NCBI GenBank assembly: GCA_945862385.1
Contig: CAMAXV010000012.1
Coordinates: forward strand, 1 to 64,000
Length of the DNA stretch: 64,000 nt
Source of the DNA: Chitinophaga pinensis
Lineage (GTDB): Bacteria > Bacteroidota > Bacteroidia > Chitinophagales > Chitinophagaceae
Reading direction: 5' to 3'
Below are positions 1 to 10,706 of the stretch, in pieces. The first letter of the stretch is position 1, and each line of letters starts with the position of its first letter. Below the pieces are notes generated by a model. That model saw nothing but the letters and a program-made list of their open reading frames with translations. It was not told where the DNA came from and made no database searches. The position numbers were made by a program, and so were the translations under genes.

Positions 1-105
1 ACACTCGATGAAGTCAGAATGCTTGCTGAACAGTGGCGAATGGATTATAACCATGAAAGACCACATGCAGCACTCGGTTTTGTACCGCCGGCAGAATTTA
101 TTTAA
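1..105 (+). CDS. IS3-family transposase OrfB, C-terminal fragment
   Basis: The first 34 codons read in frame 1 to a TAA at 103-105. They contain W-x-x-DYN-x-x-RPH-x-AL and a terminal P-x-x-F. This is the characteristic end of the DDE integrase core of IS3-family OrfB transposases (IS150/IS3 groups). The start and the catalytic D, D and E residues lie upstream of the window, so it cannot be said whether the full gene is intact. Confidence 0.85.
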   Translation, partial: TLDEVRMLAEQWRMDYNHERPHAALGFVPPAEFI

Positions 106-178: not shown

Positions 179-308
179 CCATCAGAAAACTCTTGAAACA
201 AATCCACACAAATTGCCATGAAATTTCAGCTATTCTAATTAGCACATAAATTCATGAAACCTTTGTCAGACATGTATCTGAGCCCCTTTTGAGCTGGTGC
301 GGGGGAAG

Positions 309-340
309 AAAAAGCCCCTCAGCCATTTATGCTGAGGGGC
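309..340 (-). terminator. Rho-independent terminator of tmRNA
   Basis: A perfect 10-bp stem (GCCCCTCAGC / GCTGAGGGGC, 314-323 and 331-340) with a 7-nt loop is followed on the minus strand by a run of five U. It lies 30 nt beyond the 3' end of the tmRNA and is oriented to stop it. Confidence 0.9.
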
Positions 341-370
341 GGATTTCTAACTCAGGGATCGAGTTAAAAG

Positions 371-736
371 TGGAGCTGGTGGGATTCGAACCCACGTCCA
401 AACATATTCGCCGAAAGCTTTCTACATGCTTATTTTGGAATTGATTGTAGGGAAACTGCAGGAACCAAACAAACCAACAATTTCCGTAGCTGAATGGTCT
501 TAGTCAACAGGCACAGCCTGAGGTTGAAGCAGCCTAGTTTTTTTTGATTCAGCGGAGTGACTTGGCAAAGGCAGGCCCGTCAGTCGGCTATAATGGGTGC
601 GCTAATCTCTGATTAGGCAGCCATGGCGTAAGTATTCTCGCCATTTATTGGTTTCGAGTTCAGATTAAAGTGCAACATTCGCAACGCACTGCATGCTTAC
701 TTTCAAAGATCTACGCTGTCGATACCGGTCAGCCCC
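371..736 (-). ncRNA. ssrA: tmRNA (transfer-messenger RNA)
   Basis: One-piece tmRNA that rescues stalled ribosomes by acting first as alanyl-tRNA and then as mRNA. The 5' end GGGGCUG (from 736) pairs with the 3' end CAGCUCC plus discriminator A (371). The T-arm GGGTTCGAATCCC is perfect. The tag reading frame is at 613-642: resume codon GGC, encoding GENTYAMAA then TAA, so the full tag is A-GENTYAMAA. The YAMAA/YALAA ending is typical of Bacteroidota tags. CCA is not encoded. A terminator follows at 309-340 and a -7 box precedes at 749-756. A second, decayed copy of the 3' end lies at 5617-5678. Confidence 0.97.
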
Positions 737-748
737 GTATAATAATTA

Positions 749-756
749 CAAAGGTA
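749..756 (-). promoter_or_regulatory. tmRNA promoter, -7 box
   Basis: On the minus strand this reads TACCTTTG, an exact match to the Bacteroidota -7 consensus TAnnTTTG, 12 nt upstream of the tmRNA 5' end. The upstream -33 region falls inside the 48-bp repeat at 765-812. Confidence 0.75.
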
Positions 757-764
757 CAAAATTA

Positions 765-812
765 AAAAGTCATAGACAGAAATATGCAGAAACTATTGGT
801 TGTTAAAACAGG
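765..812. repeat. 48-bp direct repeat, left copy (divergent promoter core)
   Basis: Identical over 48 bp to 5679-5726. Each copy sits between a minus-strand tmRNA sequence and a plus-strand tRNA-Leu sequence, so it holds the upstream parts of both divergent promoters. Perfect identity contrasts with the roughly 18 differences in the adjoining 84-nt tRNA sequences. Confidence 0.9.
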
Positions 813-835
813 GTATGATTCTTTCTATTTAATAT

Positions 836-919
836 GCCCGTATAGCGTAACTGGTAGACGTGCTTGACTCTAAATCAAGTTATGGCAAAGTAGTTCAGGT
901 TCGATTCTAATTTCGGGTA
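836..919 (+). pseudogene. Decayed tRNA-Leu copy with CUA anticodon
   Basis: This 84-nt sequence aligns without gaps to the intact tRNA-Leu at 5750-5833, with about 18 differences counted by hand. The class II layout is retained: D-arm, long variable arm, and T-loop TTCGATT. The anticodon loop reads CT-CTA-AA, giving anticodon CUA. The T-stem is reduced to two pairs, the acceptor has a U-U mismatch and a G-U end pair, and the variable arm has a mismatch. The upstream -7 box has decayed (TTCTTTCT instead of TACATTTG). Acceptor pair 5:68 and anticodon-stem pair 29:41 differ from the intact copy on both sides but remain paired. A pseudogene is most likely; a UAG-reading tRNA-like molecule is a remote alternative. 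Confidence 0.75.
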
Positions 920-1070
920 CATTATTAAAACAAAAACCCATTACTACAGATATATTAATAAATTGTTATGGGTCAAGCTTTAAGAATTGATAATCAATGA
1001 TTAAAGCGTATTATGCTGGTGTAATCGCCAGTTAACAATTAGTTAATGCTAAGCTATTTACACATTAGTT

Positions 1071-1078
1071 TAAGTTTG
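1071..1078 (+). promoter_or_regulatory. Promoter -7 box for the lipoprotein/receptor pair
   Basis: TAAGTTTG matches TAnnTTTG and lies 18 nt before the ATG at 1097. No convincing -33 TTG is visible at the usual spacing. Confidence 0.5.
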
Positions 1079-1096
1079 CACTCAAATTAAAAAAGT

Positions 1097-2584
1097 ATGA
1101 AAAAACTGATTTTAAACACATTGTTAGGTACGCTGATTTTGCTGTCAGCTTGTAAAAAAGAAGAAGTACCTGTTTTCACTGCACCAACTGTTTCCGGACC
1201 TTCTTCAGTGACTTCTCTGGTTGCAGGTGAAAGTGGTAAGGTAGTTTTCAATGTATCTTATGATTCTAAATTACAAGCCAATTTCACAGCTACAGGTACT
1301 AATGTAACAGTATCAAATGCAAACGGAACTGTTTCAGGATCAACAGTTGAAATTAATTTTACAACTTCTTCTGATGGTGCTGGTGCAGTTAAATTGGTTG
1401 TAACTGATTCAGATGGCAAAAGAGCAGAGGCAACTGCGGTAATACAAATTACAAAAAAATCTACTGAACAAGTTGTTACTTCAAATATAACTACAAATAC
1501 TACATGGACTGCTGATAAAGTATGGATTCTAGGTGCTAGGATTACAGTTACCGCTGGCGCTACTTTAACAATACAGCCTGGTACAATAATTAAAGGTCAA
1601 GCAGGTGCTGGTGCAAATGCAACTGCTCTTCTAATTGCAAGAGGCGGAAAAATAAACGCTGCAGGAACAGCTACAAAACCAATTATTTTTACATCAATAG
1701 CAGACGAATTATCAATTGCTGATGTAGCAGCTGGCAAATTTGCTTCACCTAACCTTAGTCCAACTGTTAATGGTTTGTGGGGTGGATTGATTGTTTTAGG
1801 TAAGGCTAAAATTTCTGCATCGTCTGCTGGAACACAGATTAATGAGGTACAAATTGAAGGTATTCCAACTTCTGACCCAAATGGTTTATATGGTGGTTCT
1901 GATGATGCTGACAATTCAGGTGTACTTAAATATATTTCAGTTCGTCATGGTGGTACAGAAATCGGTGCTGGTAACGAGATTAATGGTATCACTTTCGGTG
2001 GTGTAGGCTCTGGTACTGTTGTAGAAAACATTGAGGTTATAGGTAATCAAGATGATGGTATCGAGTGGTTCGGTGGAACTGTAAATTGTAAAAATGTAGT
2101 TGTTTGGAATGCAGGTGATGACGGTCTAGACACAGATCAAGCCTATAGAGGAACTGTTGAGAATTTCGCAATCATCACTGCCCTTGGTAGCAGCTTTGAA
2201 TTAGATGGACCAGAGGGTACTTATGGCGTTGATTTATCTGGACATACATTTAACAAAGGCTTCGTTGTTACAACTGGTAGTGCAGGAAACTGCATAGATA
2301 ACGACGCTAATACAATTGTAAATCTTAGAAATATTTACGCTAAAGGTTTCTCAGCAACAACACAAAACATTACAGAAGTATTCACAACTTATACAACTAC
2401 TTCTGGAATAGTATTTGAAAATATCAAACTAGATGTACCTCCAGCTGATTTATGGAAGTACATCAATGGTGCAACTGTTGCTTCCACTATCCCTTCAACA
2501 ATAACTGCTGGAACTGCAGCATATGCTGATTTGACAGCATTTAATGGTTGGTCTTGGACAGCAATTGCAGATAAATTAAAATAG
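1097..2584 (+). CDS. Surface lipoprotein with predicted beta-helix domain
   Basis: Exported lipoprotein of 495 residues. The signal peptide ends in the lipobox LSAC, with the acylated Cys at residue 19, followed by KKEE. Residues about 25-120 look like an Ig/cadherin-like beta domain. The rest is rich in G, T, N and V with short repeated strands (WTADKVWILGARITVTAGA, TLTIQPGTIIKG), suggesting a right-handed parallel beta-helix of the type seen in surface polysaccharide- or ligand-binding proteins. It is followed after a hairpin by a TonB-dependent receptor at 2649. The pair is probably an uptake system in which the lipoprotein captures ligand on the cell surface, analogous to SusD with SusC, although it is not a SusD homologue by eye. 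Substrate unknown. It ends in TAG, like its partner gene. Confidence 0.8.
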   Translation: MKKLILNTLLGTLILLSACKKEEVPVFTAPTVSGPSSVTSLVAGESGKVVFNVSYDSKLQANFTATGTNVTVSNANGTVSGSTVEINFTTSSDGAGAVKLVVTDSDGKRAEATAVIQITKKSTEQVVTSNITTNTTWTADKVWILGARITVTAGATLTIQPGTIIKGQAGAGANATALLIARGGKINAAGTATKPIIFTSIADELSIADVAAGKFASPNLSPTVNGLWGGLIVLGKAKISASSAGTQINEVQIEGIPTSDPNGLYGGSDDADNSGVLKYISVRHGGTEIGAGNEINGITFGGVGSGTVVENIEVIGNQDDGIEWFGGTVNCKNVVVWNAGDDGLDTDQAYRGTVENFAIITALGSSFELDGPEGTYGVDLSGHTFNKGFVVTTGSAGNCIDNDANTIVNLRNIYAKGFSATTQNITEVFTTYTTTSGIVFENIKLDVPPADLWKYINGATVASTIPSTITAGTAAYADLTAFNGWSWTAIADKLK

Positions 2585-2603
2585 TTTTCAGAAAATTATA
2601 TAC

Positions 2604-2635
2604 AAACGGTTGAAGTAACATTCAACCGTTTGTTT
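2604..2635 (+). terminator. Intercistronic hairpin/terminator
   Basis: Stem AAACGGTTGAA / TTCAACCGTTT (2604-2614 and 2621-2631) with a 6-nt loop, then GTTTTAT. It lies between the lipoprotein stop and the receptor ATG at 2649. It could end part of the transcripts and so make more lipoprotein than receptor, or stabilise the upstream message. The function is inferred. Confidence 0.6.
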
Positions 2636-2648
2636 TATATTAAATACA

Positions 2649-5561
2649 ATGAAACAATCAATACTTCTTAGCATATTTCTATTATTTTTTGGTGCCATTC
2701 AATCCCAAACTGGGACAATGAGAGGAAGAGTTATAGATGGTAATACTGGAAAACCTTCCATGTCAGCATCCATAAAAATAACCGGAACTTCATCCTCAAA
2801 AACAATTTTAAGTGATCTTGAAGGAGCTTTTACATTCATAGGGCCAGTTGGTAACTATAATATTGAAATCAGCAGTTTGGGGTTTGAAACTACAATTATT
2901 ACTGAAATACAAATTACTGATAAGAATATAACAGTAATTCCAGATGTTATTTTGTCTTTGGACAAAAAAGATATGACTGAAATTGTAGTTACTGCAAAAA
3001 AGTATAAAAGAGCGTCAGAAGAAGCTATTGCAGTGCTTAAAAGAAAATCGCTGATGTTAATGGATGGTATTTCAGCTGCCAAAATTAAATTAATTGGTGA
3101 TGCAACTGCAGTAGAAGCTGCAAAAAGAGTAACAGGAGTCTCAATTGAAGGTGGAAGATATGTTTATATTAGAGGATTGGGTGACCGTTATTCAAAAACA
3201 ACATTAAATGGTCTAGATATACCTGGACTCGATCCAGATAGGAACTCACTTCAGATGGATATCTTTCCAACTGCACTTATTGACAATATCATTGTCTCAA
3301 AAAACTTCTTACCCAATATGCCTGCAGATTTTACAGGGGGTCTATTGAATATTGAGACTAATGATTTTCCTACTTCAAAAATATTAAATATTTCTGCTTC
3401 TACTAGCTATAACCCAAATATGCATTTTAACAAAGGGTTCTTAACAGGTAACAGAGGAAAATTAGACTGGTTAGGAATGGACGATGGAACCCGTGAACTT
3501 CCGGAAATAGCTCGATTAAATAACAATATACCCACTCCAATTTCAGGAGATCCCGCAACTGCTGTAAATAGTTTTGTAAAGTCTTTCAATCCTACATTAG
3601 GGGCAACAGAAAAACAAAGTTTTACAGATTTTTCATTTGGTTTTTCAATCGGAGATCAAATTGACCTAGATAAATCTGGTGATAAGAAGGGAAAACCAAA
3701 ATTAGGTTACGTAGCGGCCCTATCATATCGTTTTGATCAGAAATTATACGATGGTATAGAATATGGTGAATATCAAAAAAATATAAACCCAAATGAGTCA
3801 GAATTGGTAGCAGCAAATACACTTGGTGGAAAACTAAGTGAAGAGAATGTTTTATGGGGTGCTTTAGGTGGTTTAGCTTACAAAACAGAACGTAATAAAA
3901 TTAAGTTCAATATCATTCGCTTACAAAGTGGAGAAAGCAGAGCCGGTAAATTCGATATTTTTAATAATTCAGATGGTGTTGGCCAATCAGGCTATCTTGC
4001 TACATCTGATAATATTGAATATAGTGAAAGAAGCATAACAAACTTGCAACTTTCAGGATCTCATGTGATTAATAATTTAAAAAATGGTTGGAAAATAGAT
4101 TGGGCCATTGGAAAAACAAATTCAGTTGCAAATGACCCTGATATAAGAAAAACAGCATTTACCATTGACCCAGGAAGAACTTATTTTAATCCAGGAGCAG
4201 GTGGCAATCCGTCCAGAATCTGGAGATATTTAGATGAGGAAAATTTATCTTTTAAATTAGATTTAGAGAAAAAAATTGGTAAGAAAAATGTAATCAGATT
4301 TGGTGCATTACAAGTTATGAGGGAGAGAAATTATGAAATAAAGTTCTATAACATACAATTTTTTGGTTCACAACAACAAAATTGGGGCACTAATGCCAAC
4401 AATATTTTAATAGATAATAATATTTACCCTAGTAATCAAAATAATATTTATTATGTATCTGGTAACTCTAATCCCAACTCCAATGAATATAATTCCAAGA
4501 TCAACAACTTGGGTGGCTATATTCTAGATGAAATAGACCTATCAAAAAACTTAAAAGGTATTTTCGGTGTTAGGATAGAAAACTATACACAGTTTCATAC
4601 CGGAAGAGACCAAAGATTTGCTTCTGGAGATATTGTAAGTGGTAAGAATCTTGTTAATGAAAAAGTACTTAATCAGATTAATTTCTTCCCAAGTATTAAT
4701 TTGATTCAAAAAGCTGGTGCCAAAACTAACTTTAGGGCTTCATATTCAAAAACAACTGCAAGACCTTCTTTCAAAGAATTATCATTCGCACAAATTATTG
4801 ACCCATTAACAAATAGAATTTTCAATGGTAGTTTGTTTTCATACAATGACTGGAATGGCAAACTAGTTCCTACTATGATTGATAATTTAGATTTAAGATG
4901 GGAATCTTTTTTTTCTGGTGCTGAAATTCTATCAATTTCTATTTTTTACAAGTCTTTCCAGAATCCAATTGAATTGGTTCGCATTCCTCAGCAACAAACT
5001 TCAACTGAATATCAACCAAGAAATGTAGGTAATGGAAATCTGATTGGCGCTGAACTTGAAATAAATAAATCACTTGATTTTATCTCAGAAAAGTTAGAAA
5101 AATTCAACTTCAACGCTAACATAACATTTGTCAAATCCTCAATAACAATGACAGATGTTGAATATAATGCTAGAAAAGCTTATGAGAAAGCAGGAGAAAA
5201 TTTGAAAAAAACAAGACCAATGGCTGGTCAATCTCCCTATATCATAAATGCTGGATTTACTTACGCAGATGCAGATAAAGGTTTAAATCTAGGAATGTTC
5301 TACAATGTTAAAGGACCTACCATTTCAATTGTTGGATCGGGATTGTTCCCAGATGTATATAGTCTACCTTATAATAATTTGAGCTTATCTTTCAATAAAT
5401 CTTTGGGTAAAAAACAAAAGGTAAACTTAAATTTAAGGGCTGAGAATATTTTGAACGACAATGTAGATTTTGTTTTTAGAGGATATAATGCAAAAGATCA
5501 AATCTTTAGTTCTTTAAGCCCCTTTCAATCATTTTCAATAGGATTTTCTTATAAATACTAG
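2649..5561 (+). CDS. TonB-dependent outer-membrane receptor
   Basis: Outer-membrane transporter of 970 residues. A signal peptide (about 1-19) is followed by a carboxypeptidase-regulatory-like domain (about 24-110), a short linker with TEIVVTA resembling the entry to the plug, a plug domain (about 150-240, containing YIRGLGDRYSKTTLNG and NFLPNMPADFTGG), and a 22-strand-type barrel to the C-terminus, which ends in an aromatic-rich strand (FSIGFSYKY). The length is normal for the family. There is no SusD-like partner; the upstream lipoprotein is the likely partner. TonB/ExbBD energise such receptors from the inner membrane. A strong terminator follows at 5581-5614. Substrate cannot be told from sequence. 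Codon use looks more A/T-rich than in the housekeeping genes further right. Confidence 0.9.
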   Translation: MKQSILLSIFLLFFGAIQSQTGTMRGRVIDGNTGKPSMSASIKITGTSSSKTILSDLEGAFTFIGPVGNYNIEISSLGFETTIITEIQITDKNITVIPDVILSLDKKDMTEIVVTAKKYKRASEEAIAVLKRKSLMLMDGISAAKIKLIGDATAVEAAKRVTGVSIEGGRYVYIRGLGDRYSKTTLNGLDIPGLDPDRNSLQMDIFPTALIDNIIVSKNFLPNMPADFTGGLLNIETNDFPTSKILNISASTSYNPNMHFNKGFLTGNRGKLDWLGMDDGTRELPEIARLNNNIPTPISGDPATAVNSFVKSFNPTLGATEKQSFTDFSFGFSIGDQIDLDKSGDKKGKPKLGYVAALSYRFDQKLYDGIEYGEYQKNINPNESELVAANTLGGKLSEENVLWGALGGLAYKTERNKIKFNIIRLQSGESRAGKFDIFNNSDGVGQSGYLATSDNIEYSERSITNLQLSGSHVINNLKNGWKIDWAIGKTNSVANDPDIRKTAFTIDPGRTYFNPGAGGNPSRIWRYLDEENLSFKLDLEKKIGKKNVIRFGALQVMRERNYEIKFYNIQFFGSQQQNWGTNANNILIDNNIYPSNQNNIYYVSGNSNPNSNEYNSKINNLGGYILDEIDLSKNLKGIFGVRIENYTQFHTGRDQRFASGDIVSGKNLVNEKVLNQINFFPSINLIQKAGAKTNFRASYSKTTARPSFKELSFAQIIDPLTNRIFNGSLFSYNDWNGKLVPTMIDNLDLRWESFFSGAEILSISIFYKSFQNPIELVRIPQQQTSTEYQPRNVGNGNLIGAELEINKSLDFISEKLEKFNFNANITFVKSSITMTDVEYNARKAYEKAGENLKKTRPMAGQSPYIINAGFTYADADKGLNLGMFYNVKGPTISIVGSGLFPDVYSLPYNNLSLSFNKSLGKKQKVNLNLRAENILNDNVDFVFRGYNAKDQIFSSLSPFQSFSIGFSYKY

Positions 5562-5580
5562 AATTATAGGTATTAAACTA

Positions 5581-5614
5581 AAAGGGATCAATTCAAAAAA
5601 TTGATCCCTTTTTT
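5581..5614 (+). terminator. Rho-independent terminator of the receptor gene
   Basis: Stem AAGGGATCAATT / AATTGATCCCTT (5582-5593 and 5599-5610) followed by TTTT, 20 nt after the receptor stop codon. Confidence 0.9.
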
Positions 5615-5616
5615 AC

Positions 5617-5678
5617 GTGGAACTGGTATGATTAAAACCCATGTCCAAACATTTTCGCCGATAGTTACATACTTCAAT
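5617..5678 (-). pseudogene. Decayed 3' fragment of a second tmRNA
   Basis: The plus strand here follows the 3' end of the intact tmRNA (371-430) base for base with scattered changes, including GTCCAAACAT-TTCGCCGA. Changes fall in the acceptor and T-arm (for example GGGATTCGAACCC has become ATGATTAAAACCC), so it cannot fold as tRNA. About 300 nt, including the tag frame, are missing. The sequence then joins the 48-bp promoter repeat at 5679. It is a relic of a duplicated ssrA. Confidence 0.8.
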
Positions 5679-5726
5679 AAAAGTCATAGACAGAAATATG
5701 CAGAAACTATTGGTTGTTAAAACAGG
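5679..5726. repeat. 48-bp direct repeat, right copy
   Basis: Identical to 765-812. Here it lies between the tmRNA relic and the functional tRNA-Leu promoter, supplying the -33 region of that promoter. Confidence 0.9.
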
Positions 5727-5740
5727 AAATGATACATTTG
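5709..5740 (+). promoter_or_regulatory. tRNA-Leu promoter
   Basis: The -33 region ATTGGTTG (5709-5716) and the -7 box TACATTTG (5733-5740) match the Bacteroidota consensus; a TTG at 5710 lies 20 nt from the -7 box. The tRNA begins 10 nt downstream. The equivalent -7 box of the left copy is destroyed. Confidence 0.8.
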
Positions 5741-5749
5741 CAGTCCTGA

Positions 5750-5833
5750 GCCCAGATGGCGGAACTGGTAGACGCGCTAGACTCAAAATCTGGTTATCGC
5801 AAGGTAGTGCAGGTTCGATTCCTGTTCTGGGCA
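5750..5833 (+). tRNA. tRNA-Leu (anticodon CAA)
   Basis: 84-nt class II tRNA. The acceptor stem GCCCAGA / TCTGGGC is perfect, with discriminator A at 5833 and no encoded CCA. The anticodon stem CTAGA / TCTGG encloses the loop CT-CAA-AA, so it reads UUG leucine codons. The variable arm has four pairs (TATC / GGTA around GCAA). The T-arm GCAGG-TTCGATT-CCTGT is intact. It has a consensus promoter and a terminator, so it is a stand-alone transcription unit. Confidence 0.95.
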
Positions 5834-5836
5834 CTT

Positions 5837-5865
5837 AAAAACCTCAACTCTTGTTGGGGTTTTTT
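5837..5865 (+). terminator. Terminator of tRNA-Leu
   Basis: Stem AACCTCAAC / GTTGGGGTT with loop TCTT and a run of T directly after, starting 4 nt past the tRNA 3' end. Confidence 0.85.
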
Positions 5866-5871
5866 AATATG

Positions 5872-5899
5872 AAAAAAGGAACTGGATGTCTCCAGTTCC
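5872..5899 (-). terminator. Minus-strand terminator
   Basis: A perfect 9-bp stem GGAACTGGA / TCCAGTTCC with loop TGTC (5878-5899) is followed on the minus strand by six U. It faces the minus-strand mini-protein gene at 6058-6246, whose stop is about 160 nt away. The stretch between holds nothing else recognisable. Confidence 0.7.
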
Positions 5900-6057
5900 G
5901 CGAAACAGCAGTTTTTGACTCTTTTTACGAAGCCTTATTGTCTGCTTTAATCTTACCGGCATCAGCAATAAATACTGTCAACCGACTGATACAATATTAC
6001 AATTTTCAAGTGCCGGTTTCCCAGATTTCAAATCAGTAACCTGCATGAGTTTAATCA

Positions 6058-6669: not shown

Positions 6670-8031
6670 ATGAATATCAAAAACAACATTCTCGAAACCA
6701 TTGGCAATACCCCGTTAATCCGTTTGAATAACATCACCAAGGCACTCCCCTGTCAGGTACTGGCCAAGGTAGATTATTTCAACCCTGGCAATTCCATCAA
6801 AGACAGGATGGCACTGAAAATGGTTGAAGTAGCAGAAAGAGAAGGGAAACTGAAACCCGGTGGAACAATCATAGAATGCACATCCGGCAATACCGGAATG
6901 GGACTTGCTCTGGCAGCTGTAGTCAAGGGATACAAATGCATATTCACTACAACAGACAAACAATCAAAGGAAAAAATAGATATCCTCCGTGCAGTTGGTG
7001 CGGAGGTGATTGTTTGTCCAACCAACGTTGAACCTGAAGATCCGGGAAGTTATTATTCCGTTGCGAGAAGATTGGCAAGAGAAATTCCCAATTCTTTTCA
7101 TGCCAATCAGTATGATAATCTTGCCAACAGGCTGGCACACTATGAATCTACCGGACCGGAGATCTGGGAGCAGACTGATGGGAAAATCACCCATTTAATA
7201 TGTACTGCTGGCACAGGGGGAACAGTTACAGGTACCGCCATGTATCTGAAAGAAAAAAACCCGAACATCCAAATCTGGGCTATTGATGTATACGGCTCTT
7301 TGTTGACAAAATATTACCAGACGGGCATCAAAGATATGAGTGAAGTCCATCCATATATATCAGAAGGATTCGGAGAGGATTTTGTTCCTGAAAACTTTGA
7401 TATGTCTGTAATTGATCATTTTGAACAGGTAACAGATAAAGATGGGGCCATTATGGCCAGGAGGCTTGCAAAGGAAGAAGGGTTATTTTGCGGTTACAGT
7501 GCGGGAAGTTGTCTGCAGGGACTTATGCAATTAAGCAATCGGTTGAAACCTGATGATATCGCGGTTTGTATACTTCATGATCATGGAAGCCGCTATGTTG
7601 CCAAGATATATAACGATCAGTGGATGCTGGAAAGAGGTTTTCTTGAAGTAAAAACTTTCAAAGACATCGTGACCTCCAGGGGACAAAAACAAAAATTAAT
7701 CGTAGTTAATCCAGATCAACCCATTGCTGATGCCGTTGCATTGATGAAAAAATATGAAATAGAACATATTCCTGTCATGAATGGAAATGAACTGATAGGA
7801 TCTATCAGTGAAAACGGAATTTTCCAGAAAATGTTTTCAGATAATAACTTCAGTAAGGAACCCATAGGCAATGTGCTTGAAAACGCCTACCCAATGGTTG
7901 ATTACAATTCACCTGTTGAGAAAATAAGTAAACTTATCAGCAAAGAAAATGGAGCAGTCTTAAGTAAAGATGAGACAGGAACGCTTCATATTATCACAAA
8001 ATACGATATCTTACAGGCCCTCGCTAACTGA
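6670..8031 (+). CDS. cbs: Cystathionine beta-synthase-like PLP enzyme with CBS pair
   Basis: Fold-type II PLP enzyme of 453 residues. The catalytic domain occupies about 1-310, with the PLP lysine K44 in SIKDR, the phosphate/substrate loop TSGNTGMG near 80 and the glycine-rich GTGGT near 180. Two CBS motifs fill about 335-453. This architecture, without an N-terminal haem domain, is used for cystathionine beta-synthase or O-acetylserine sulfhydrylase in Bacteroidota. The CBS pair suggests regulation by an adenosyl ligand, though this is inferred. Likely role: transsulfuration or cysteine synthesis in the cytoplasm. Downstream, no gene is seen for more than 400 nt. Confidence 0.85.
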   Translation: MNIKNNILETIGNTPLIRLNNITKALPCQVLAKVDYFNPGNSIKDRMALKMVEVAEREGKLKPGGTIIECTSGNTGMGLALAAVVKGYKCIFTTTDKQSKEKIDILRAVGAEVIVCPTNVEPEDPGSYYSVARRLAREIPNSFHANQYDNLANRLAHYESTGPEIWEQTDGKITHLICTAGTGGTVTGTAMYLKEKNPNIQIWAIDVYGSLLTKYYQTGIKDMSEVHPYISEGFGEDFVPENFDMSVIDHFEQVTDKDGAIMARRLAKEEGLFCGYSAGSCLQGLMQLSNRLKPDDIAVCILHDHGSRYVAKIYNDQWMLERGFLEVKTFKDIVTSRGQKQKLIVVNPDQPIADAVALMKKYEIEHIPVMNGNELIGSISENGIFQKMFSDNNFSKEPIGNVLENAYPMVDYNSPVEKISKLISKENGAVLSKDETGTLHIITKYDILQALAN

Positions 8032-9648: not shown

Positions 9649-10706
9649 GGCATTGTAGTTTGGCTGTATCCAGAAATATTTTCAAGTAATTGCTCATTCT
9701 CAGCTGAAGTGCCAACAGTAATCCTTAAACACTGGTCGCATAACAATACATTGCTTCTGTCTCGCAGCACAATTCCTTTTTCCAAAAGATAATTATACAT
9801 GGATTTTGCATCCTTAAACTTCACCAGCAGGAAATTGGCATCAGACGGATAAACAATCAAAACCTGATTACATTTTAGAAGATCAGCTTCAAGCTTTTTC
9901 CTTTCATCCACCAAAACACGAATCATATCATTAACCTGACCAACTTCATCCAACGCATTCATGACAAGATCCTGCACTGGCTGACTGATATTATAGGGCG
10001 GTTTGACTTTATTCAGGTAGCCAATTATTTCCGGGGAAGCAAATGCCATTCCAAGTCTTAATGCTGCAAGACCCCATGCCTTACTTAAGGTTTGTAATAT
10101 AACCAGGTTGGGATAATCAGTTAAATCAGTAACGAAGGAACGCTGTCTGGAGAAATTGATATATGCTTCATCAATAACAACCAGTCCGTCGAAATTATTC
10201 AACACCATTTCAATATCCTGCCTGTCAATACTGTTTCCGGAAGGGTTGTTTGGTGAACAAATCCAGATTATTTTGGTATTGGGCCTGATGGCTTCTTCAA
10301 GCGCGGGAAGATCAAGTTGAAAATTGGCGGTAAGCGGAACCCTGTTCAGACTTATATTATTGATGTTGGCAGAAACTTCATACATACCGTATGTGGGTGG
10401 ACAGATGATGACTTCATCCAGGGCCGGTTCACAAAAACATCTAAACAATAAATCGATCGGTTCATCACTGCCATTGCCAAGAAAAATTTGTTCAACCGGA
10501 ACTTGTTTAATGGCTGACAGTTTCTCTTTAATTTTCCATTGTAAAGGATCCGGATAACGGTTGTACCACTTCAACAGCGGGGAACCAAGTGAGTTCTCAT
10601 TGGCATCGAGAAAAATACTTGCATCTCCCTTAAACTCATCTCGTGCAGAAGAATAAGGCTTGAGCGATTTGATATTATTTCTTACTAAATTGTCCGGACT
10701 AAACAT
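9645..10706 (-). CDS. hisC: Histidinol-phosphate aminotransferase
   Basis: Fold-type I PLP aminotransferase of 353 residues, the usual size. The PLP lysine lies in TLSKAWGLAALRLG, the substrate and cofactor segments in NGSDEPIDLLFR and CSPNNPSGN, and VVIDEAYINF precedes the lysine. It converts imidazole-acetol phosphate to histidinol phosphate. The ATG overlaps the end of hisD by 8 nt and the stop overlaps hisB by 4 nt, as expected for a tight operon. Confidence 0.97.
   Translation of the reverse strand: MFSPDNLVRNNIKSLKPYSSARDEFKGDASIFLDANENSLGSPLLKWYNRYPDPLQWKIKEKLSAIKQVPVEQIFLGNGSDEPIDLLFRCFCEPALDEVIICPPTYGMYEVSANINNISLNRVPLTANFQLDLPALEEAIRPNTKIIWICSPNNPSGNSIDRQDIEMVLNNFDGLVVIDEAYINFSRQRSFVTDLTDYPNLVILQTLSKAWGLAALRLGMAFASPEIIGYLNKVKPPYNISQPVQDLVMNALDEVGQVNDMIRVLVDERKKLEADLLKCNQVLIVYPSDANFLLVKFKDAKSMYNYLLEKGIVLRDRSNVLLCDQCLRITVGTSAENEQLLENISGYSQTTMP

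Follow-up and report, generated by a model that had tools for sequence, protein, structure and literature searches.

How did a lipoprotein gene and a TonB-dependent receptor gene come to lie between two half-decayed copies of a tmRNA/tRNA-Leu pair, and could they leave again with both RNA genes intact? The window, that is the whole 64-kb stretch of DNA analysed here, starts with the first base of an 82,671-bp contig, so that no left flank can be read beyond it. The source genome is a draft of 3.07 Mb in 80 contigs with a listed completeness of 99.51% and a listed contamination of 0%. The contig opens (window positions 1-105, plus strand) with the C-terminal end of an IS transposase that has an rve_3 domain, and its break probably falls within a repeated IS copy.

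Two direct copies of a tmRNA/tRNA-Leu unit

An earlier note on this DNA had described a duplicated tmRNA/tRNA-Leu pair around a two-gene insert, with an identical 48-bp centre in both copies, a tmRNA relic on the right and, for each RNA gene, a working copy and a decayed one. ARAGORN, Rfam and alignments of the copies bore out this anatomy, with the tmRNA starting at position 370 rather than 371:

370-736, minus strand: intact tmRNA gene with the tag GENTYAMAA (ARAGORN, Rfam)
749-756, minus strand: kept -7 box TACCTTTG of the tmRNA promoter (pattern TAnnTT[T/C]G)
765-812: identical 48-bp centre, left copy (alignment of the copies)
813-835: decayed -7 region of the left tRNA copy (10/23 against the right copy; TAnnTT[T/C]G absent)
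836-920, plus strand: degenerate tRNA-Leu copy with anticodon CTA (4/20 stem pairs broken, 3 of them in the T stem)
921-5616: insert (G+C 33.6%; receptor foreign to the genus)
1097-2584, plus strand: lipoprotein gene, 495 aa, G+C 38.0%
2649-5561, plus strand: TonB-dependent receptor gene, 970 aa, Plug and beta-barrel, G+C 32.3%
5617-5664, minus strand: tmRNA 3'-end relic, 40/48 (remainder of the gene and -7 box missing)
5679-5726: identical 48-bp centre, right copy (alignment of the copies)
5733-5740, plus strand: kept -7 box TACATTTG of the tRNA-Leu promoter (pattern TAnnTT[T/C]G)
5750-5834, plus strand: intact tRNA-Leu(CAA) (ARAGORN, Rfam; 96-100% identity to 13 congeners)

The working RNA genes lie outside, their decayed copies inside and the insert between them. 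The tmRNA at 370-736 was the sole match over the tmRNA cut-off in the source genome. At the right-hand relic the Rfam tmRNA model gave no match up to E = 10; its identity as tmRNA follows from alignment with the 3' ends of tmRNA genes in the window and in congeners, together with its order and orientation. In an ungapped comparison of the copies, the repeat runs from the tmRNA 3' end to the tRNA-Leu 3' end, and similarity falls to 15/40 before 370/5617 and to 20/60 after 920/5834, so that the homologous stretch does not extend past the 3' end of either RNA gene. Within the repeat, the RNA-gene parts match at 79-83% (40/48 for the tmRNA 3' end and its relic, 67/85 for the tRNA copies), and the right copy lacks about 333 bp present in the left (start-to-start spacings of 5247 and 4914). 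The centre is identical throughout (765-812 = 5679-5726, 48/48), with identity around it at 43-83% and only 10/23 in the next 23 bp, which lead from the centre to the tRNA.

The promoters are divided in the same way. The -7 promoter motif of Bacteroidota is TAnnTTTG; scanning with a version loosened to TAnnTT[T/C]G, we found it upstream of tRNA-Leu in all 13 relatives, at a distance of 16-21 bases, and upstream of tmRNA in 12 of the 13, at 19-24 bases. The left copy of the unit has kept the tmRNA box and lost the tRNA box and the right copy has kept the tRNA box and lost the tmRNA box, so that complementary loss extends to genes and promoters alike.

For the left tRNA, predictions and structure have to be read together. 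ARAGORN reported it at 836-920 under the name Pyl, owing to the anticodon CTA, and called tRNA-Leu(CAA) at 5750-5834; Rfam scored the left copy at 36.2 bits and the right at 57.1, both over the gathering score of 29, so that the label 'broken' given by the note must rest on other evidence. Such evidence exists, and the label stands despite the Rfam score: 18 of 85 bases differ from the right copy, 4 of 20 stem pairs are broken (three of five in the T stem, one in the acceptor stem) and the -7 box is lost. The CTA anticodon also suggested a working amber-suppressor tRNA-Leu(CUA) under selection, a reading favoured by the continued acceptance of the gene by both programs, by its perfect anticodon stem and by two compensated double changes (P = 0.047, simulation). 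However, the broken T-stem and acceptor pairs and the lost promoter box speak against a working gene, and the 16 of 20 pairs kept are no excess over simulation (P = 0.20); we therefore set the suppressor aside as highly improbable.

Elsewhere in the source genome there is a tRNA-Leu(TAA), which can by wobble also read UUG, and the description of both RNA genes as essential-type was too strong for tRNA-Leu(CAA) on this account. A Leu-tRNA site on contig C14, considered as another duplication, holds ordinary tRNA-Leu(GAG), tRNA-Gly and tRNA-Leu(TAA) genes instead.

Because the window lies at a contig start in a draft of 80 contigs, an assembly artefact joining two strains or species might be suspected. 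We regard this as very unlikely, given the listed completeness and contamination of the genome. Moreover, RNA-gene copies at 79-83% identity that flank a foreign operon are unlike the product of a mis-join at a 48-bp repeat, and a query of the left spacer plus tRNA matched only these two places in the source genome.

Single pairs in relatives and a receptor foreign to the genus

To place the locus within its genus, we used a sample of 41 genomes, one per species and including the source genome. The 27 congener tmRNA loci comprise 14 with a single divergent tmRNA/tRNA-Leu pair, two with a co-directional pair, one with the tRNA inverted and ten without an adjoining tRNA-Leu. In the single-pair loci the spacer between the two genes measures 77-164 bp (13 of the 14 measured), and the ten loci without an adjoining tRNA-Leu are the more distant ones (tmRNA identity 74-83% vs 88-92%). 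The stretches fetched from the 27 loci contained no second tmRNA or tmRNA relic. The expectation that relatives lacking the insert would carry a single close pair thus held among the nearer congeners but not at the 13 other loci.

The insert has a G+C content of 33.6%, against a mean of 38.3% (sd 2.1) in 214 same-size windows between positions 6000 and 64000. The receptor gene is low in G+C (32.3%) and the lipoprotein gene host-like (38.0%), so that composition supports acquisition for the receptor and not for the lipoprotein. At E <= 1e-120 the receptor had no match in the other 40 genomes of the genus, leaving the source genome as the only carrier (1/41). Weaker relatives occur in many congeners at E <= 1e-50 (27-33% identity where listed); considered as copies of the insert, they were taken as other receptors. 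The nearest relatives belong to other families, at 51% identity in G049 and 53% in Marivirga aurantiaca and a Lewinella MAG; a relative in Roseivirga thermotolerans stands at about 50%. Together, the single pair at 14 of 27 congener loci and the receptor in 1 of 41 genomes agree with the note's proposal of a single-pair ancestor and a duplication around an acquired uptake locus.

The lipoprotein (495 aa) gave no match in Pfam, NCBIfam, PHROGs or PDB sequences. Nevertheless, the receptor has a lipoprotein homolog as its neighbour at 25 of 27 named loci, on the upstream side at 24 and on the downstream side at one; at the two others, one receptor starts 53 bases from a contig end and one shows no homolog. 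This arrangement argues for a two-gene uptake operon acquired as a unit, with a predicted role in outer-membrane uptake that follows from the receptor family. In a Flavobacteriaceae MAG (L106, 5650-7911), the lipoprotein and receptor pair lies near ORFs that we take to be response-regulator-like and kinase-like, which hints at regulated uptake. Beside the operon in the named loci there were no RNA gene copies except one unrelated tRNA-Glu. The plus-strand ORFs of at least 60 aa in our insert (921-5616), which are the lipoprotein and the receptor only, included no recombinase family, and no replication or integration gene was found in the 4.9 kb from centre to centre.

The identical centre and the predicted geometry of excision

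The centre is too alike for uniform decay. When the 31 mismatches of the 156-bp stretch 765-920 were shuffled along it, a match run of at least 48 arose with P = 7.5e-5, a value that serves as a rough guide, the left edge of the stretch having been chosen at the alignment start. Across 14 sequences (13 relatives and the joined site described below), the spacer was less conserved than the tmRNA in 91 of 91 pairwise, non-independent comparisons; as the spacer changes faster than the tmRNA in relatives, ordinary selection on it is not the explanation of the identity. The 48/48 centre is best read as a trace of exchange between the copies rather than of slow evolution, although partial selection on -33 regions inside it may play a part, and a recent exchange between the centres, through crossover or gene conversion, would be the simplest account.

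Such exchange would have a defined outcome. Joining position 812 to 5727 in silico gave an intact tmRNA, a 99-bp spacer, both -7 boxes and tRNA-Leu(CAA), and the released circle of 4,914 bp would hold decayed copies only, with the tmRNA and both -7 boxes absent. With the intact genes outside and the decayed ones inside, loss through the centre would therefore restore the ancestral pair, which contradicts the note's assertion that recombination between the copies could now remove the insert only at the cost of an RNA gene. Four layouts keep one working copy per gene and the excisable one is expected by chance in 1 of 4, so that the layout taken by itself carries little weight and the identity of the centre carries more. 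Two points count against an excisable insert: ARAGORN still calls the CTA tRNA on the predicted circle, and 48 bp is short for efficient homologous recombination.

We consider it probable that a foreign operon lies between direct copies of the tmRNA/tRNA-Leu unit whose centres recombine, or did so recently, and that the layout of the insert is reversible. According to this explanation, the lipoprotein and TonB-receptor operon would be lodged between two direct copies of a divergent unit of tmRNA, spacer and tRNA-Leu; the chromosome would keep the working tmRNA on the left and the working tRNA-Leu on the right, and the insert-linked inner copies would have decayed in gene and promoter. The 48-bp spacer centres would recombine with each other, now or in the recent past, the left end being composed of tmRNA, centre and decayed tRNA and the right end of decayed tmRNA, centre and tRNA. 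Excision would then yield the intact ancestral pair and the 4,914-bp circle. Two routes could lead to this state: the pair may have been duplicated around the cargo, or a circle bearing the cargo and a decayed pair may have entered by a single crossover, and either would be followed by exchange at the centre. The inner copies may have decayed in place or may already have been decayed on arrival; the exchange itself we infer to be homologous recombination, as the insert has no recombinase gene. Our confidence covers the claim shared by both routes, and the likelihoods given to this explanation and to its rivals consequently overlap and do not add up to one.

Duplication-degeneration-complementation, in which complementary loss follows duplication, promoters included, would provide a static account of the locus. 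The pair would have been duplicated in place, around or with the insert, and each copy would have lost a different member by drift; nothing would move now, and conversion or chance would have kept the centre identical. The complementary loss of genes and promoters, the ancestral single copy with both functions (found at 14 of 27 loci) and the similar decay of both relics (40/48 and 67/85) all fit, and no donor is needed. We nevertheless judge this reading possible but somewhat doubtful: unless conversion is added, decay at a uniform rate would not be expected to leave 48/48 in a segment that changes faster than the tmRNA, and once conversion is added, the centres already recombine. The locus also departs from the known pattern in that a divergent RNA-gene pair is split by a foreign operon and that the centres appear to have recombined.

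In Campbell insertion-duplication, the direct repeats at the ends are hybrids of resident and incoming sequence, and the insert can be excised through them. The corresponding route within our preferred explanation is single-crossover integration, with the crossover in the 48-bp centre, of a circle carrying a decayed pair and the operon, an option that we likewise consider possible but somewhat doubtful. It predicts the intact genes outside, the decayed ones inside and the identical exchange tract between that are observed; the receptor is foreign in content and composition, and the in-silico join of the outer halves restores an undivided site. Like a Campbell integrant, the locus has hybrid direct repeats at its ends and a layout permitting excision; unlike it, the identical homology is only 48 bp long. 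No such circle appeared among the plasmid and phage matches listed or in viral contigs, and the 4.9 kb without a replication or integration gene likewise weigh against this route. Complementary loss in two independent steps, as envisaged by the note, is not required in any case, because one crossover with a circle bearing an already decayed pair gives the same picture.

A donor was sought more widely. Window positions 300-6000, compared with plasmids and phages, matched in the tRNA part in all 20 plasmid records listed (of 24) and in all three phage records (of three); viral contigs contained no exact match to a 31-nt piece of the centre. The centre resembles spacers of its own genus, so that a donor circle would come from the same species or a near strain. 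In an order-wide search of 298 genomes, with two candidates scored per genome, the decayed tRNA query yielded five matches (78.8-82.4 bits) that scored slightly above its own right copy (77.0); considered as its source, they were rejected as ordinary tRNA-Leu(CAA) genes sharing 3, 0, 0, 0 and 0 of the 18 changed sites. The decayed tRNA is nearest to ordinary tRNA-Leu(CAA). A query of centre plus relic matched weakly in seven other genomes (best E 8.8e-5 per genome), and of the five matches fetched, one lies in a tmRNA gene and four have no RNA gene near. Among the plasmid and phage matches listed, in viral contigs searched with the 31-nt piece and among two candidates per genome in 298 genomes of the order, we found no donor of the decayed pair, which counts against the recombination reading. 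A recombinase-free reversible cargo slot, in which a 4.9-kb circle with the uptake operon would carry the decayed pair as an address label, host homologous recombination at the 48-bp promoter spacer would move it in and out, and both RNA genes would stay functional on the chromosome throughout, seems rather unlikely to us.

Were the preferred explanation true, a tmRNA/tRNA locus could house a cargo operon with no integrase and no danger to either RNA gene: the cargo would take the decayed duplicates along, and the working genes would stay on the chromosome. 'Reciprocal decay' of duplicated RNA genes could then arise from one recombination event. Two histories, duplication in place with complementary decay on the one hand and integration by a single crossover on the other, leave similar pictures in a finished genome and would be separable by one junction.

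Integrase islands and the tRNA-Leu site in the genus

Genes for tmRNA and tRNA are well-known insertion sites, and the anatomy of the locus resembles an integrated element with hybrid att-like ends. In Dehalococcoides, islands at ssrA are flanked by a 20-bp repeat of the tmRNA 3' end, many with a serine-recombinase module, according to two reports (PMC2764846, PMC3146451). Our locus is similar to the islands described there in its acquired genes beside tmRNA, the repeated tmRNA 3' fragment flanking them, the low G+C and the working tmRNA kept; it differs in having no recombinase gene, a repeat that extends from the tmRNA end to the tRNA-Leu end, and a spacer as the identical part. Integration in tRNA genes, according to another paper, usually creates an identical second copy of part of a single target RNA gene and leaves one complete and one partial tRNA copy (PMC9897764). 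Our locus fits that outline in having an intact tRNA at one end of the insert and an apparently non-functional one at the other. It departs from the outline in that the decayed tRNA has mutated but kept its full length, that a second RNA gene takes part and that the stretch of identity falls outside the tRNA. Judged by title or abstract start, no matching case was recognisable in the open-licence literature on tmRNA/tRNA islands and duplications, which does not prove absence.

Of the features that define integrase-mediated islands, we found the insert to be absent from relatives with an undivided target (14 of 27 loci), but neither a recombinase gene in the insert nor an identical repeat in the RNA-gene 3' part; with two defining features failing, we did not file the locus among these islands. 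It could still be the scar of a tyrosine-recombinase island at tRNA-Leu that has since lost its integrase. Three observations in congeners favour such a scar, namely a contig on which the start of a gene with an Arm-DNA-bind_5 domain lies right behind tRNA-Leu (G026), extra 18-nt tRNA-Leu 3' ends downstream of the gene (G023 and G063) and variable gene content between tRNA-Leu and a CBS gene. However, the repeat takes in both RNA genes, it is identical in the spacer and not in the RNA-gene 3' part, and the ORFs of at least 60 aa in the insert include no integrase gene, so that we consider a scar improbable.

The surroundings of tRNA-Leu vary across the genus. In the window, tRNA-Leu is followed by a gene at 6670-8031 that, judging from its sequence, is probably cystathionine-beta-synthase-like (CBS), and 11 congeners likewise have CBS on the tRNA-Leu side (G001, G002, G010, G011, G015, G017, G021, G026, G036, G062 and G063). 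The distance between the two in congeners ranges from about 0.1 to about 6 kb with varying gene content, which indicates that this interval takes up other genes too; in G002 it holds ORFs that are presumably PhzF-like, helicase-like and glycosidase-like. In two congeners the co-directional tRNA-Leu abuts the tmRNA directly and in one it is inverted (among G015, G001 and G010), so that the orientation of tRNA-Leu flips within the genus.

Further tRNA-Leu matches were present on other contigs in G002, G010, G023 and G026. The second copy in G010 was dismissed, as its two contigs overlap by 141 identical bases and represent one locus. In G026, contigs C116 and C109 share 118 bases (the spacer end, the tRNA and 3 bases) and then diverge; C116, which carries tmRNA, tRNA-Leu and the start of the gene with the Arm-DNA-bind_5 integrase domain of tyrosine-recombinase type (C116, 1-330), runs into this integrase gene and C109 into CBS. 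These contigs may represent two tRNA copies around an element, or a mixture of occupied and empty sites, and the integrase-bearing element behind tRNA-Leu indicates that ordinary elements use this site too. On G023 contig C9 and two G002 contigs the sequence upstream of tRNA-Leu differs, and the two genomes are listed with 7% and 5% contamination; these extra copies may be foreign or true second copies. Finally, exact extra copies of the last 18 bases of tRNA-Leu occur downstream of the gene in G023 (C196, 1-170) and G063 (9749-9766), and in G023 this 18-base 3' end recurs in a tandem unit with a terminator.
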